NCBI GenBank assembly: GCA_027064525.1
Contig: JAMOPJ010000042.1
Span: forward strand, 1-34,434
Length of the DNA: 34,434 nucleotides
Reading direction: 5' to 3'
Source: Archaeoglobaceae archaeon
GTDB lineage: Archaea; Halobacteriota; Archaeoglobi; Archaeoglobales; Archaeoglobaceae
Part shown: piece by piece, positions 9,651 to 29,624 of the stretch
Layout: the number at the start of each line of letters is the position of its first letter
How positions within the stretch are numbered: position 1 is the first letter of the stretch
Notes under the pieces: model-generated
Told to the model about the DNA's origin: nothing
Databases searched by the model: none
The model's input: the letters and a program-made list of their open reading frames with translations, nothing else
Translations under genes and position numbers: made by a program

Positions 9651-9805
9651 AATAACCCTCCCTCAAGCATTTTGGAATAATTTTAGGAAGTTTAAAAACA
9701 TTTCCATTTATCACGTAGCTCGACGATAGCGAATTTTTAAAACTAAAATAATTCATTTTTATATTAAATCTAAATAATATCAAGCACAAAAATAAAGGAA
9801 AAAAT
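9651..9805 (-). promoter_or_regulatory. aprA-qmoA intergenic region with possible internal promoter
   Basis: The 155-bp gap between aprA and qmoA is AT-rich and far longer than the other gaps in this cluster (5-116 bp). On the minus strand TATA-like tracts occur near 9735-9745 and 9685-9695, and a GGGAGGG ribosome-binding site lies right before the qmoA ATG. The qmo genes may therefore be transcribed both by read-through and from their own promoter. I see no clear hairpin or operator here. Confidence 0.35.
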
Positions 9806-11746
9806 TTAGAGTTGCCAGTCGACGATCTGGATGTATGGAACCTTCTGGAGCTCCCACTCGCCGGTCTCTGGGTTCCTCCTGCCGACGACGAAGCACTTCC
9901 AGTTCTCGTCGTCCAAGTTCGGATAGTCAGTTCTGTAGTAGTAGCCAGGCCATCTGGTCTCCTGTCTGAAGAGCATGTGCTGGACGTGTGCCTCGGCTAC
10001 GATGACTCTGTGCCACATCTCCCAGCATCTCATGAGCTCGTGGAGGTTCCTCGCAGCGAGCTTCTCCATGTCCTCCTTGAGCATCTGCAGCCTCTCGAGA
10101 GCGATCTTCAACATCTTCTCGTTGGTCTTGTACCACATTGAAGCTCCAGCCGCATATTCATCCATGATCTTCTGGAGTCTCCAGAGCGCCTGCTTCGGGA
10201 ACAGGTAGTTCGGGTTGATGTCCTCTCTCGTTGAAGCTCCCTTGAACTGCTCGTAGGTGACCATCGGCTGGAATATCTTCTTCTTAAGCTCCTGAACCTT
10301 AGCGTCGTCAACCTCTGGGTTCGGGTTCTGTTCTACGATGTATCTTACAGCCTCCTTACCGGCAATTCTACCCTCCGTGAACGAACCGCTTGAGAACTTG
10401 TGCGGGTTAGCTCCAGAACAGTCACCGACTGCGAACAATCCCTTGATTGTCGTCATTCTGTTGTAGCAGAGTGGGAACAACTTCTTGTACTCCTCTGGCA
10501 TCAAGTCCTCTGGTCCGCAGACCCACAGACCAGCACAGCCTGAGTGTGAACCCATCATGTATGGCTCGGCCGTCATGATCTCCGAAGGCACCTTCTCTGG
10601 CTCGATGTTCAAAGCAGCCCAGAGCAATGCCTGTGAAACTGTCATGTCGAGGAAGTCCTCCCAAGCCTCCTCGATCAACTTCTTGAGATCCTTACCCTCT
10701 TCGCTGAGCTTCTTGATGGCCCACTCTGTTCTCATGAGGATCGGACCCTTACCTTCCATGAGCTCTACGAGCATCTGGTGGTTTCTAAGCGGTGTCGGAG
10801 TTGGGACAGCGTCAGCGTATGGCTTGTACTGGGCAATTGTCTCCTTCTTCTCGATGTAAACCTCATCGTATGCGTTCGTAGCTACTGACTTGAACAACAG
10901 GAACCATGCACCAACTGGTCCGTAACCATCCTTGAATCTTGCCGGGATGAATCTGTGCTCCATCTGGCATGTGTGGGCACCAGCCTCGATGGCCATTGCG
11001 TAACCGCTACCCGTGTTGAACACTGCATACCAGATTCTACCCATACCCTCTCCGGTGCTTCTCGGCTTGAACAGCAATGTTGCTCCACCCGTTGCAAGAA
11101 TTACTGCCTTAGCCTTGAAGATGTAGAACTTCGGCTCTCTTACGCTGAAACCTACTGCACCAGCAACCCTCTGTGGGTCGTTCTTGTCAAGTAGCAAGTG
11201 TGTTACCATTACTCTCTCAATGATGTTCTCCTCACCAAGAGCCATCTTCGTAGCTTCAGCGATGATCGGCTTGTAGGACTCACCGTGAATCATGACTTGC
11301 CATCTACCCTCTCTGACATACTTGCCGTTCTCATCCTTCCAGATCGGCAATCCCCACTTCTCAAAGAGGTGAACGGTTCCATCAACATGTCTTGCGTAGT
11401 CGGCTACCAAGTCCTCTCTTGCAATACCCATCATGTCGAGAGTTACGTATCTGACGTAGTCCTCAATCGTGTTCGGCTTGTCACCTACCTGCTGAGCCCT
11501 GCCAGAGAGACCGAGGTATGTGTTGATAGCTGACAGACCCTGAGCGATGGCACCGCTCCTCTCAATTGCTGCTTTCTCTACAAGTGTTACTTTCAATCCG
11601 GCAGCTTTGGCCCAGTATGCAGCCTCATAGGCTGCACCACAGCCTGAGAAACCTCCACCGACAATCAAGACATCAGTCTCTATTGTAACATCTTCTACAT
11701 CTTCTGGCTTGTATGTTTCTATATTCTTATATACCTCAACCGCCAT
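9806..11746 (-). CDS. aprA: Adenylylsulfate (APS) reductase alpha subunit
   Basis: AprA is the catalytic FAD subunit of dissimilatory APS reductase, converting APS to sulfite and AMP in the cytoplasm. At 646 residues it has the expected length. The FAD Rossmann motif VLIVGGGFSGCGAAYEAAYW lies near residue 27. The segment around MEHRFIPARFKDGYGPVGAW holds the Arg that the family uses at the active site, and GSHSGCAGLWVCGPEDL supplies the catalytic His region. The rest matches the fumarate-reductase-like capping and helical domains. GGAGGTG precedes the start. It lies 23 bases after aprB, the usual B-A order, and forms the AprBA heterodimer. Confidence 0.97.
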   Translation of the reverse strand: MAVEVYKNIETYKPEDVEDVTIETDVLIVGGGFSGCGAAYEAAYWAKAAGLKVTLVEKAAIERSGAIAQGLSAINTYLGLSGRAQQVGDKPNTIEDYVRYVTLDMMGIAREDLVADYARHVDGTVHLFEKWGLPIWKDENGKYVREGRWQVMIHGESYKPIIAEATKMALGEENIIERVMVTHLLLDKNDPQRVAGAVGFSVREPKFYIFKAKAVILATGGATLLFKPRSTGEGMGRIWYAVFNTGSGYAMAIEAGAHTCQMEHRFIPARFKDGYGPVGAWFLLFKSVATNAYDEVYIEKKETIAQYKPYADAVPTPTPLRNHQMLVELMEGKGPILMRTEWAIKKLSEEGKDLKKLIEEAWEDFLDMTVSQALLWAALNIEPEKVPSEIMTAEPYMMGSHSGCAGLWVCGPEDLMPEEYKKLFPLCYNRMTTIKGLFAVGDCSGANPHKFSSGSFTEGRIAGKEAVRYIVEQNPNPEVDDAKVQELKKKIFQPMVTYEQFKGASTREDINPNYLFPKQALWRLQKIMDEYAAGASMWYKTNEKMLKIALERLQMLKEDMEKLAARNLHELMRCWEMWHRVIVAEAHVQHMLFRQETRWPGYYYRTDYPNLDDENWKCFVVGRRNPETGEWELQKVPYIQIVDWQL

Positions 11747-26250: not shown

Positions 26251-26307
26251 GGCTCAGAATTGGATTCATTCATCATAATATCAGACGCGGGCTACCTCAT
26301 CATAGCC
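26251..26307 (-). ncRNA. C/D-box sRNA with two 16S rRNA guides
   Basis: All four boxes are perfect on the minus strand: C ATGATGA (26297-26303), D' CTGA (26281-26284), C' ATGATGA (26270-26276) and D CTGA (26254-26257). GGC/GCC closes the ends. The 12-nt guides are GGTAGCCCGCGT (before D') and ATGAATCCAATT (before D). Their complements are ACGCGGGCTACC and AATTGGATTCAT. Eleven bases of each match conserved archaeal 16S segments as I remember them (ACACGCGGGCTACAATGG and TTTAATTGGATTCAACG). By the fifth-base rule the 2'-O-methylated residues would be G1231 and G962 (E. coli numbering, approximate). A TATA tract lies ~26 nt upstream (about 26335). Confidence 0.9.
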
Positions 26308-26394: not shown

Positions 26395-26744
26395 TTAATC
26401 CTGATCTATGAACTTCAAAAGCTTAGGATTAATAGCATACAACTTTTTTCCTTTTCTACCAATATCAGGTCGAGATACTACAAAACCCCCAGCTTCAAGT
26501 TCCTTTAATACACGCTATATTGTCTTATAAGATGGAAATCTTTGCAATACCATGTTTATCGATTAGCTCAGCAACTACCCCTCTTATCTCCTTCAAGAAT
26601 CTTCTCATTCTTGAAGATTCCCTTCTTCTTCAGTTCTTCATAGATCTTAGTAAAGAGTTCAGGTACATCCTCAAAATCACCTACCCAAAATTCTAATTTT
26701 GGTTTGCGTTCTGCCAAATCTGCTAATATGATAATCATTTTCAT
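26395..26744 (-). pseudogene. Decayed winged-helix DNA-binding protein gene
   Basis: Reading the minus strand from the ATG at 26744 gives MKMIIILADLAERKPKLEFW and onward for 57 codons to a TGA. A frameshift near there continues as GVVAELIDKHGIAKIS. A second shift gives PSYKTI, an in-frame TAG, then RVLKELEAGGFVVSRPDIGR and KGKKLYAINPKLLKFIDQD. The last part has the helix, wing and hairpin of a winged-helix regulator. Two frameshifts and one stop in 350 bases mean a dead gene. No protein can be made beyond the first 57 residues. Confidence 0.75.
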
Positions 26745-26777
26745 GAAATTTTTCTTTAATTATAAATAGCATCACAG

Positions 26778-26833
26778 CCACTCAGCAGTGGTAAAGTTCA
26801 TCACGTTTCAGCGGCTCGCTTTCATCATCGTGG
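26778..26833 (-). ncRNA. C/D-box sRNA (minus member of divergent pair)
   Basis: Boxes on the minus strand are C ATGATGA (26822-26828), D' CTGA (26808-26811), C' GTGATGA (26798-26804) and D CTGA (26782-26785). CCAC/GTGG ends pair as a terminal stem. Guides are AAGCGAGCCG (before D', 10 nt) and ACTTTACCACTG (before D, 12 nt). I could not assign targets from memory. A TATA-like tract at about 26857-26865 on the minus strand is at correct distance, so it is transcribed away from the plus-strand sRNA next to it. Confidence 0.88.
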
Positions 26834-26866
26834 CTAAAGATATTTGCCCAACGGTCTAAAAAACTG
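26834..26866. promoter_or_regulatory. Compact bidirectional promoter of two C/D-box sRNAs
   Basis: About 43 bp separate the two divergent C boxes (26828 and 26872). AAAGATATTTGC (about 26836-26847) serves the plus-strand RNA. AGTTTTTTA on the minus strand (about 26857-26865) serves the minus-strand one. Each TATA tract is ~26 nt from the expected RNA 5' end, so the two promoters overlap head to head. Confidence 0.5.
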
Positions 26867-26924
26867 TGGCGATGATGAAGGGCCAACGCGCTGAGATGTG
26901 ATGAAATGTTCCGCCTCTGAGCGT
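26867..26924 (+). ncRNA. C/D-box sRNA (plus member of divergent pair)
   Basis: Boxes on the plus strand are C ATGATGA (26872-26878), D' CTGA (26891-26894), C' GTGATGA (26898-26904) and D CTGA (26917-26920). Guides are AGGGCCAACGCG (before D') and AATGTTCCGCCT (before D), both 12 nt. Flanking GGC/GCG bases give only a weak terminal stem. Targets were not identified. The RNA ends only ~38 bases before the map start codon, so read-through into map is possible. Confidence 0.88.
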
Positions 26925-26958: not shown

Positions 26959-27819
26959 ATGAGTCTTGAGAAGTATATCGAAGCCGGTAAAATTCTCAAG
27001 CAGGTGAGAGAAGAAGCGATAAAGCTAATAAAGCCCGGAGTTAAGCTCTTGGAGGTTGCAGAGTTCGTCGAAAATAGGATCAGAGAACTTGGAGCAGAAC
27101 CGGCTTTTCCGTGCAATATTTCGATAAACAGCGATGCAGCACATTTCACACCAAAAGCTAATGACGAAAGGGTGTTTAAAGAGGGGGATGTCGTTAAGCT
27201 TGACATCGGCGCACACATAGACGGCTACATAGCCGATACAGCTGTGACTGTCGATTTGGGAGATCACGAAGATCTCGTTAGGGCGGCTGAAGAGGCTTTG
27301 AAGAACGCCATAGAGGTTATACACGCTGGAGTAAATACAGCTGAGATTAGCGAAGCTATATTTAGCACTATAACCGAATTCGGGTTTAAGCCGATCATAA
27401 ACCTAACCGGACACGGTCTGGATCGCTATGTAGCCCATGCACCTCCCACGATATACAACGTTAAGATTGAGAAGGGAGTGGAGCTTAAGGAAGGAATGGT
27501 GATCGCCATCGAGCCTTTCGTAACGAACGGCGTTGGGAAAGTTGCTGAGAGGGGGGAATGCGAGATCTTCTCGTTGATAGCAGTTAAGCCAGTTAGGATG
27601 AAGCAGGCGAGACGGCTTATGGAGGAAATCCTGAGAAAGTATAAGACTCTGCCGTTTGCTAAGAGGTGGTTAAAGGCTTCAGATATCATTCTGGCAAAGC
27701 TTGTTAGAGAGGGAGTTCTTAGGGCCTATCCAGTGCTTACGGAGGTTGGGAAGGGATTGGTCAGTCAAACGGAACACACGGTTATAGTCGAAGAGAACGG
27801 AGCAAGAGTGATCACTTGA
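26959..27819 (+). CDS. map: Methionine aminopeptidase, type II
   Basis: This enzyme removes the initiator Met from new proteins. The 286-residue protein has the pita-bread fold ligands: Asp in VVKLDIGAHIDGYIADTAVT (two Asp, near residues 82 and 93), His in NLTGHGLDRYVAHA near residue 154, Glu in MVIAIEPFVTNG and Glu in VSQTEHTVIV near the C-terminus. The ~60-residue helical insert before the last ligand (ARRLMEEILRKYKTLPFAKR) marks the archaeal/eukaryotic type II enzyme. A divalent metal pair is required. Translation starts at ATG 26959 (MSLEKYIEAGKILKQ); no strong ribosome-binding site is seen. Confidence 0.95.
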   Translation: MSLEKYIEAGKILKQVREEAIKLIKPGVKLLEVAEFVENRIRELGAEPAFPCNISINSDAAHFTPKANDERVFKEGDVVKLDIGAHIDGYIADTAVTVDLGDHEDLVRAAEEALKNAIEVIHAGVNTAEISEAIFSTITEFGFKPIINLTGHGLDRYVAHAPPTIYNVKIEKGVELKEGMVIAIEPFVTNGVGKVAERGECEIFSLIAVKPVRMKQARRLMEEILRKYKTLPFAKRWLKASDIILAKLVREGVLRAYPVLTEVGKGLVSQTEHTVIVEENGARVIT

Positions 27820-29496: not shown

Positions 29497-29557
29497 ATTT
29501 TTCAGTAAACCCAGCCTTCATCATCATCTCAGTAGGTACCGACCATCATCATCTAAT
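29497..29557 (-). ncRNA. C/D-box sRNA (second of tandem pair)
   Basis: Boxes on the minus strand: C ATGATGA (29546-29552), D' CTGA (29529-29532), C' ATGATGA (29518-29524; an overlapping second copy at 29521-29527) and D CTGA (29502-29505). Guides are TGGTCGGTACCTA (before D', 13 nt) and AGGCTGGGTTTA (before D, 12 nt). Only about 17 bases separate its C box from the end of the first sRNA, so both probably come from one processed transcript. Target sites were not found. Confidence 0.85.
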
Positions 29558-29564
29558 AAAAATC

Positions 29565-29624
29565 TATCCTCAGCCAGCCATCCTTTCATCATATGTCAGC
29601 AGCTCACCAGCTTCATCATCGGCA
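29565..29624 (-). ncRNA. C/D-box sRNA (first of tandem pair)
   Basis: Boxes on the minus strand: C ATGATGA (29613-29619), D' CTGA (29596-29599), C' ATGATGA (29586-29592) and D CTGA (29570-29573). Guides are AGCTGGTGAGCTG (before D', 13 nt) and AAGGATGGCTGG (before D, 12 nt). A TATA tract (TTTATTAAAA region, about 29647-29657) lies ~26 nt before the expected 5' end. It is downstream of, and on the same strand as, the membrane-protein gene at 29672-30262. Targets were not identified. Confidence 0.88.

Follow-up and report, generated by a model that had tools for sequence, protein, structure and literature searches.

Head-to-head box C/D guide sRNA genes with predicted interleaved promoters in Archaeoglobaceae

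The sRNA pair and its neighborhood

Box C/D sRNAs are guides that place chemical marks on ribosomal and transfer RNA. The window analyzed here, 34,434 nt of contig C42 in the 53-contig draft genome of an Archaeoglobaceae archaeon (referred to as G000), carries two such genes head to head, A-minus and A-plus (together pair A; Table 1). A-minus reads ATGATGA-AAGCGAGCCG-CTGA-AAC-GTGATGA-ACTTTACCACTG-CTGA on the minus strand (26828-26782), and A-plus reads ATGATGA-AGGGCCAACGCG-CTGA-GAT-GTGATGA-AATGTTCCGCCT-CTGA on the plus strand (26872-26920). Both strands thus have complete C, D', C' (GTGATGA in both) and D boxes in the order of an archaeal box C/D sRNA, with guides of 9-14 nt; the D' guides are AAGCGAGCCG and AGGGCCAACGCG, and the D guides ACTTTACCACTG and AATGTTCCGCCT, respectively. 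A preliminary description of this DNA had reported a complete array on each strand and C boxes 43 bp apart, and our reading of the boxes bears out both, the distance being exactly 43 bp. A-minus is closed by a perfect 6-bp terminal stem (AGCCAC/GTGGCT, 26830-26835 with 26776-26781), and the stem of A-plus has only ~2-3 bp (GC/GC in the window, GGC/GCC in the related genome G038). The likeness to archaeal box C/D guide sRNAs extends to the C (RUGAUGA), D (CUGA) and C'/D' boxes, the 10-12-nt guides adjoining the D boxes, the 3-nt D'-C' spacers, the terminal stem, and the complementarity to rRNA and tRNA described below; in themselves the two RNAs are unexceptional C/D guides that add to a known class. 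An Rfam scan of the window at the gathering score found a tRNA-Ala alone and no C/D sRNA family match, which is expected since C/D sRNAs are short, variable, and without a dedicated model.

Table 1. Positions of pair A, its predicted promoter elements, and other features in the window (target numbering as in G036).
Feature	Position	Strand	Remarks
Control C/D sRNA	26254-26303	-	Matches 16S nt 1211/939
A-minus C/D-box sRNA	26776..26835	-	Probable run 26835-26776, inferred from terminal stem
A-minus D box	26785-26782	-	
A-minus C box	26828-26822	-	
Spacer between A-minus and A-plus C boxes	26829..26871	.	43 bp; predicted to hold both core promoters
BRE/TATA-like element TAAAGATATTTG for A-plus	26835-26846	+	First base is the predicted A-minus 5' end
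BRE/TATA-like element CAGTTTTTTAGA for A-minus	26866-26855	-	First base abuts the predicted A-plus 5' end
A-plus C/D-box sRNA	~26866..26924	+	Ends approximate, inferred
A-plus C box	26872-26878	+	
A-plus D box	26917-26920	+	
Methionine-aminopeptidase-like M24 peptidase gene	26959..27819	+	Pfam Peptidase_M24 E=8.6e-40
Control C/D sRNA	29502-29552	-	Matches 16S nt 1236/1270
Control C/D sRNA	29570-29619	-	Matches 23S nt 1227/1201

The M24 peptidase ORF starts 38 bp downstream of A-plus and may share a transcript with it. When related genomes were compared, as the preliminary description had proposed, boxes and guides proved to be kept in three congeners: all four guides and arrays of pair A are present in G036, G037, and G038 (three of the four other genomes of the genus), with a spacer of 41-43 bp and upstream of the same M24 aminopeptidase gene. 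The pair was not found in the fourth, G035, from whose assembly the adjoining aminopeptidase gene is also missing. Guide differences among the congeners fall mainly at outer duplex positions (position 1 of the A-minus D guide; position 12 of the A-plus D' and D guides). The most diverged copy, that of G036, has a largely changed spacer sequence (41 bp), with AT-rich tracts at unchanged distance from each C box. On the far side of A-minus the neighbors differ in the relatives.

Just past the 3' end of A-minus, the window contains a broken ORF (26400-26745, minus strand) with many stops in one frame and, in another frame, a 73-aa fragment without a Pfam match; a TATA-like tract near 26757-26770 precedes it. 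Three more complete C/D sRNAs lie elsewhere in the window on the minus strand (Table 1), the last two in tandem, 17 bp apart.

Candidate targets of the guides

Targets were sought among the rRNAs of relatives and 45 of the tRNAs of G000, with 60 shuffles of each guide for comparison. The rRNAs of relatives were used because the G000 assembly, despite a completeness rating of 99.99%, contains no 23S rRNA and only the 5' part of the 16S rRNA. As positive controls, the three other C/D sRNAs of the window gave 10-12-bp rRNA matches (Table 1).

Three of the four guides of pair A have complementarity to rRNA or tRNA that covers the nucleotide fifth from the D or D' box. The A-plus D guide forms 11 bp with 23S rRNA (nt 1776 in G036, nt 1744 in G001), which none of the 60 shuffles equaled; this target rests on the relatives, since the 23S rRNA of G000 is missing from its assembly. 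The A-plus D' guide forms 10 bp with tRNA-Gly(UCC) (1/60 shuffles), and the A-minus D guide forms 10 bp, one of them G-U, with the D-arm of tRNA-Ser(GGA) and tRNA-Ser(GCU) (2/60 shuffles), where the predicted site is G18. The A-minus D' guide is an orphan, as its best match was equaled by 14 of 60 shuffles. The earlier statement that neither guide could be matched to a target is thus superseded by candidate targets, better than shuffles, for three of the four. We also considered a 7-bp match of the A-plus D' guide to 23S rRNA near nt 1806, 30 nt from the D target, and ranked it below tRNA-Gly(UCC), as its pairing fails at positions 2-4.

We propose that the two genes are expressed and that their RNAs work with L7Ae-Nop5-fibrillarin. 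The A-minus D guide would direct 2'-O-methylation of G18 in tRNA-Ser, the A-plus D guide would direct methylation of the 23S nucleotide, and the A-plus D' guide would probably act on tRNA-Gly(UCC). The combination of one tRNA guide and one orphan guide in A-minus is shared with tRNA-directed sRNAs reported from Pyrobaculum (PMC7994747).

A guide matching the same tRNA-Ser site is also present in G015 and G017, pairing perfectly in G017 and with one mismatch in G015, for which a compensating tRNA change was looked for and not found. We rejected the sRNA carrying it as an ortholog of A-minus, since its D' guide and its setting differ; the tRNA-Ser site is a recurrent target, and the likeness is not one of orthology.

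On another contig of G000 (C48, L088), two tRNA genes lie within ~1.2 kb (9797-9880 and 10844-10925). One is an ordinary tRNA-Leu(UAA); the other, not properly delimited by ARAGORN, is a Leu(UAA)-type copy with a tRNA-Ser-like D-arm (GAGTGGTAAGGC), which would share the target site of A-minus.

Head-to-head pairs in other archaea and the promoters between them

A DNA search within G000 led to a further head-to-head C/D pair, a block on contig C2 at 70% identity over 148 bp (E 4.7e-10). Using a pattern of head-to-head C boxes 30-60 bp apart to scan the family, we found four pairs in G000 (contigs C2, C33, C42, which is the window, and C51), further pairs in all four congeners and in two of the three of an A. 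profundus-like genus (including G015), and none in the 48 other genomes of the family. Reversed-pattern controls gave no match in the family; these controls, together with the conservation of all four arrays in G036, G037, and G038, make pair A more than a chance match. After both arms were checked, five guide families were recognized, namely A (the window), B, C, D, and F (genus and A. profundus-like genus). An apparent third pair in G036 (contig C13) was dropped as it had only one complete arm, and single pattern matches elsewhere in the phylum sample were taken as chance, no fetched locus outside the family having both arms.

A stricter pattern (34-48 bp allowed) was then applied to 84,980 prokaryotic species and returned 30 loci. 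Both full arms were present in 16, all of them archaeal (Archaeoglobaceae, Ignisphaera, Njordarchaeota with two loci in one genome, two Thermoproteota MAGs, and a Thermoproteales MAG), absence elsewhere being weak evidence with so strict a pattern, which may pass over pairs with other guide lengths or degenerate C'/D' boxes in Thermococcales, Pyrobaculum, and Sulfolobales. Although 34-48 bp was allowed, the spacers of these 16 loci measure 38-43 bp, and those of all verified pairs 37-44 bp. The bacterial matches were treated as chance, as they lack a second complete arm and their number is, by our estimate, about what chance predicts. The recurrence of this close spacing in other archaea suggests a genuine mode of packing guide-RNA genes.

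Within the spacer of pair A, BRE/TATA-like elements are present ~31 nt upstream of each C box, i.e., ~25-26 nt upstream of the expected 5' ends. The TATA tract that the preliminary description gave at ~26 nt for each RNA therefore stands as to position, with the reservation that each element is individually modest (6-7 of 11 consensus matches) and that its placement is significant only over the whole pair set. When ten distinct spacers from Archaeoglobaceae were profiled from either end, the A+T content was highest on each strand about -27 to -34 relative to the C box, with a center richer in G+C. At -26..-36 the A+T fraction is 0.77, and the highest value among the shuffles is 0.69 (0/5000 reach 0.77). 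An AAA-N-TTTAWATA-like element scores 149 in the sense and 116 in the antisense direction (shuffle maximum 125), so that each strand has a directional AAA+TTTA element ~31 nt ahead of its C box.

If 5-7 nt are transcribed before each C box, the starts of the two sRNAs are predicted to lie ~26-32 bp apart, with ~31 bp predicted for pair A, and each BRE/TATA is predicted to fall in the start region of the other gene. Such starts are too close for a single shared TATA (~50 bp in Pyrococcus), so that two interleaved promoters are needed. The earlier notion of a divergent shared promoter is retained as overlapping opposite promoters, on the grounds of conservation, fixed spacing in unrelated pairs, and directional elements, and changed from one shared promoter to two interleaved ones. 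Bidirectional archaeal promoters with one TATA are documented, with proof in vitro (PMC6640164): in Pyrococcus furiosus, TBP/TFB promoter DNA likewise gives RNAs both ways, from one TATA midway between starts ~49-50 bp apart, and the antisense RNA is thought to be non-functional. It is nonetheless very improbable that one symmetric BRE-TATA-BRE of this kind drives both sRNAs here, where the spacers of 37-44 bp show two AT-rich zones, both off-center, around a relatively G+C-rich middle, where the predicted separation of the starts is well short of ~50 bp, and where both products are structured guide RNAs.

Archaeal C/D sRNAs are reported to arise most commonly by excision from longer precursors, and most to lack promoters of their own (PMC7994747); the conserved linkage of A-plus to the aminopeptidase ORF fits such a route. 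On this view, processing of the 5' leader of the aminopeptidase mRNA would release A-plus, a leftward transcript would be the source of A-minus, and the AT-rich spacer would be incidental or the promoter of one ordinary gene. This we consider unlikely. No intact leftward gene adjoins A-minus, where there is the broken ORF and variable neighbors in relatives; directional elements occur on both strands; and the same spacer anatomy is found at pairs with no protein gene to serve. In the pair on contig C2, the promoters serve no protein gene there, since the flanking protein genes converge on the pair.

We favor the reading, at a probability of about 0.76, that A-minus and A-plus are functional genes for archaeal box C/D guide sRNAs and that each is transcribed from a separate TBP/TFB promoter, this pair of promoters being interleaved in opposite directions within 43 bp. 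Mutual exclusion or coupling of the two genes, as raised in the preliminary description, would follow from the spacer geometry, as would promoter competition: two preinitiation complexes could not occupy the spacer together, and the genes would fire in turn from a shared patch. Bidirectional promoters of E. coli and Salmonella are comparable in that the core element of each direction overlaps the start region of the other and binding for one direction prevents that for the other (PMC12825309, PMC10268837); they differ in their Sigma70 -10 symmetry, starts typically 18 bp apart, and other machinery, and are an analog rather than the same class. Overlapping bidirectional promoters of E. coli compete only if one direction is strong (PMC12825309), and by this comparison competition in pair A may be negligible at low firing rates.

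The reason for the layout is likely compaction, given that the shortest spacers are as long as one promoter measured from the C box (~37 bp, the minimum that holds BRE, TATA, and start); head-to-head pairing would let two genes use the same 37-44 bp. Compaction alone does not explain the absence of spacers >44 bp. We looked for a consistent functional link between the targets of paired sRNAs and found none, and a regulatory purpose of the pairing is unsupported because the partners' targets are not consistently shared. Compaction with incidental coupling is the simpler reading.

The gene contexts listed for archaeal C/D sRNAs in a review (PMC7994747) are ORF-end overlaps, tandem clusters, tRNA fusions, and intergenic genes, and include no head-to-head pair with interleaved promoters. 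A text search of the openly readable literature found no paper on the compact paired-promoter C/D arrangement, which appears undocumented there. The transcription of archaeal guide RNAs is unsettled, most being thought to lack their own promoters, and a recurrent, precisely spaced divergent arrangement makes clear start-site predictions. The pairs also offer a natural test of interference between two basal archaeal promoters on the same DNA.

Duplication and nesting of the pairs

The whole of block A has an inverted paralog in pair B (alignment z = 8.0; 0/300 shuffles with the boxes fixed reach the score). The other nine pairings are mostly at chance level; C-D, D-F (both orientations), and C-F reach z 2.6-5.0 with low absolute scores. 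Between A and B, the spacer is identical at 31/43 positions (72%) and the guides at 20/46 (43%), and B-minus now matches 16S rRNA at nt 1035 and 1177. By this alignment, the unit was duplicated as a block and its guides then changed, which illustrates how two new guide specificities could appear together, in a single step and with expression already in place.

Pairs C and F are associated in a different manner. In G035, G037, G038, and G036 (the last by reading the sequence), pair C is flanked on the outside by the two F sRNAs, in the order F1<- C1<- ->C2 ->F2, and on contig C51 of G000 this order is kept with ~0.6-0.8 kb between members. F1 and F2 directly face each other in G015 and G017, across a 37-38-bp spacer, the G015 pair being at C1:1297214-1297322. 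Two histories would give these arrangements: insertion of C into the F pair, or loss of C followed by a return of F1 and F2 to the face-to-face geometry.

Because hyperthermophiles have many C/D sRNAs, some will stand back to back, and the lack of a consistent common target molecule between partners would fit a chance juxtaposition without functional or evolutionary meaning. Such an origin is extremely improbable in view of the four pairs in one genome, the narrow 37-44-bp spacing in unrelated pairs across archaeal phyla, the duplication of one pair as a block, and, in the A. profundus-like genus, the face-to-face spacing that the F pair may have re-formed. Beyond the interleaved-promoter reading of pair A, we tentatively raise the idea, which we hold to be possible though doubtful, that head-to-head C/D pairs are a distinct module under selection, in which 37-44 bp of shared promoter DNA would balance two guide RNAs by mutual occlusion, and which would spread by block duplication with guide replacement and by nesting.

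Near pair B on contig C2 (L002, 1503-1702), three C/D sRNAs occupy 200 bp: two form the head-to-head pair, and the third, on the minus strand, converges on B-plus with ~12 bp between D boxes. The four-sRNA cluster of C and F (L162, L143, L167, L166, and L224 on contig C51 of G000) is symmetric, with one head-to-head pair nested in another. In this cluster, F1 lies ~37 nt beyond C1 and has its own TATA-like tract, and F2 lies only a few nt beyond C2, the two possibly forming a dicistron.
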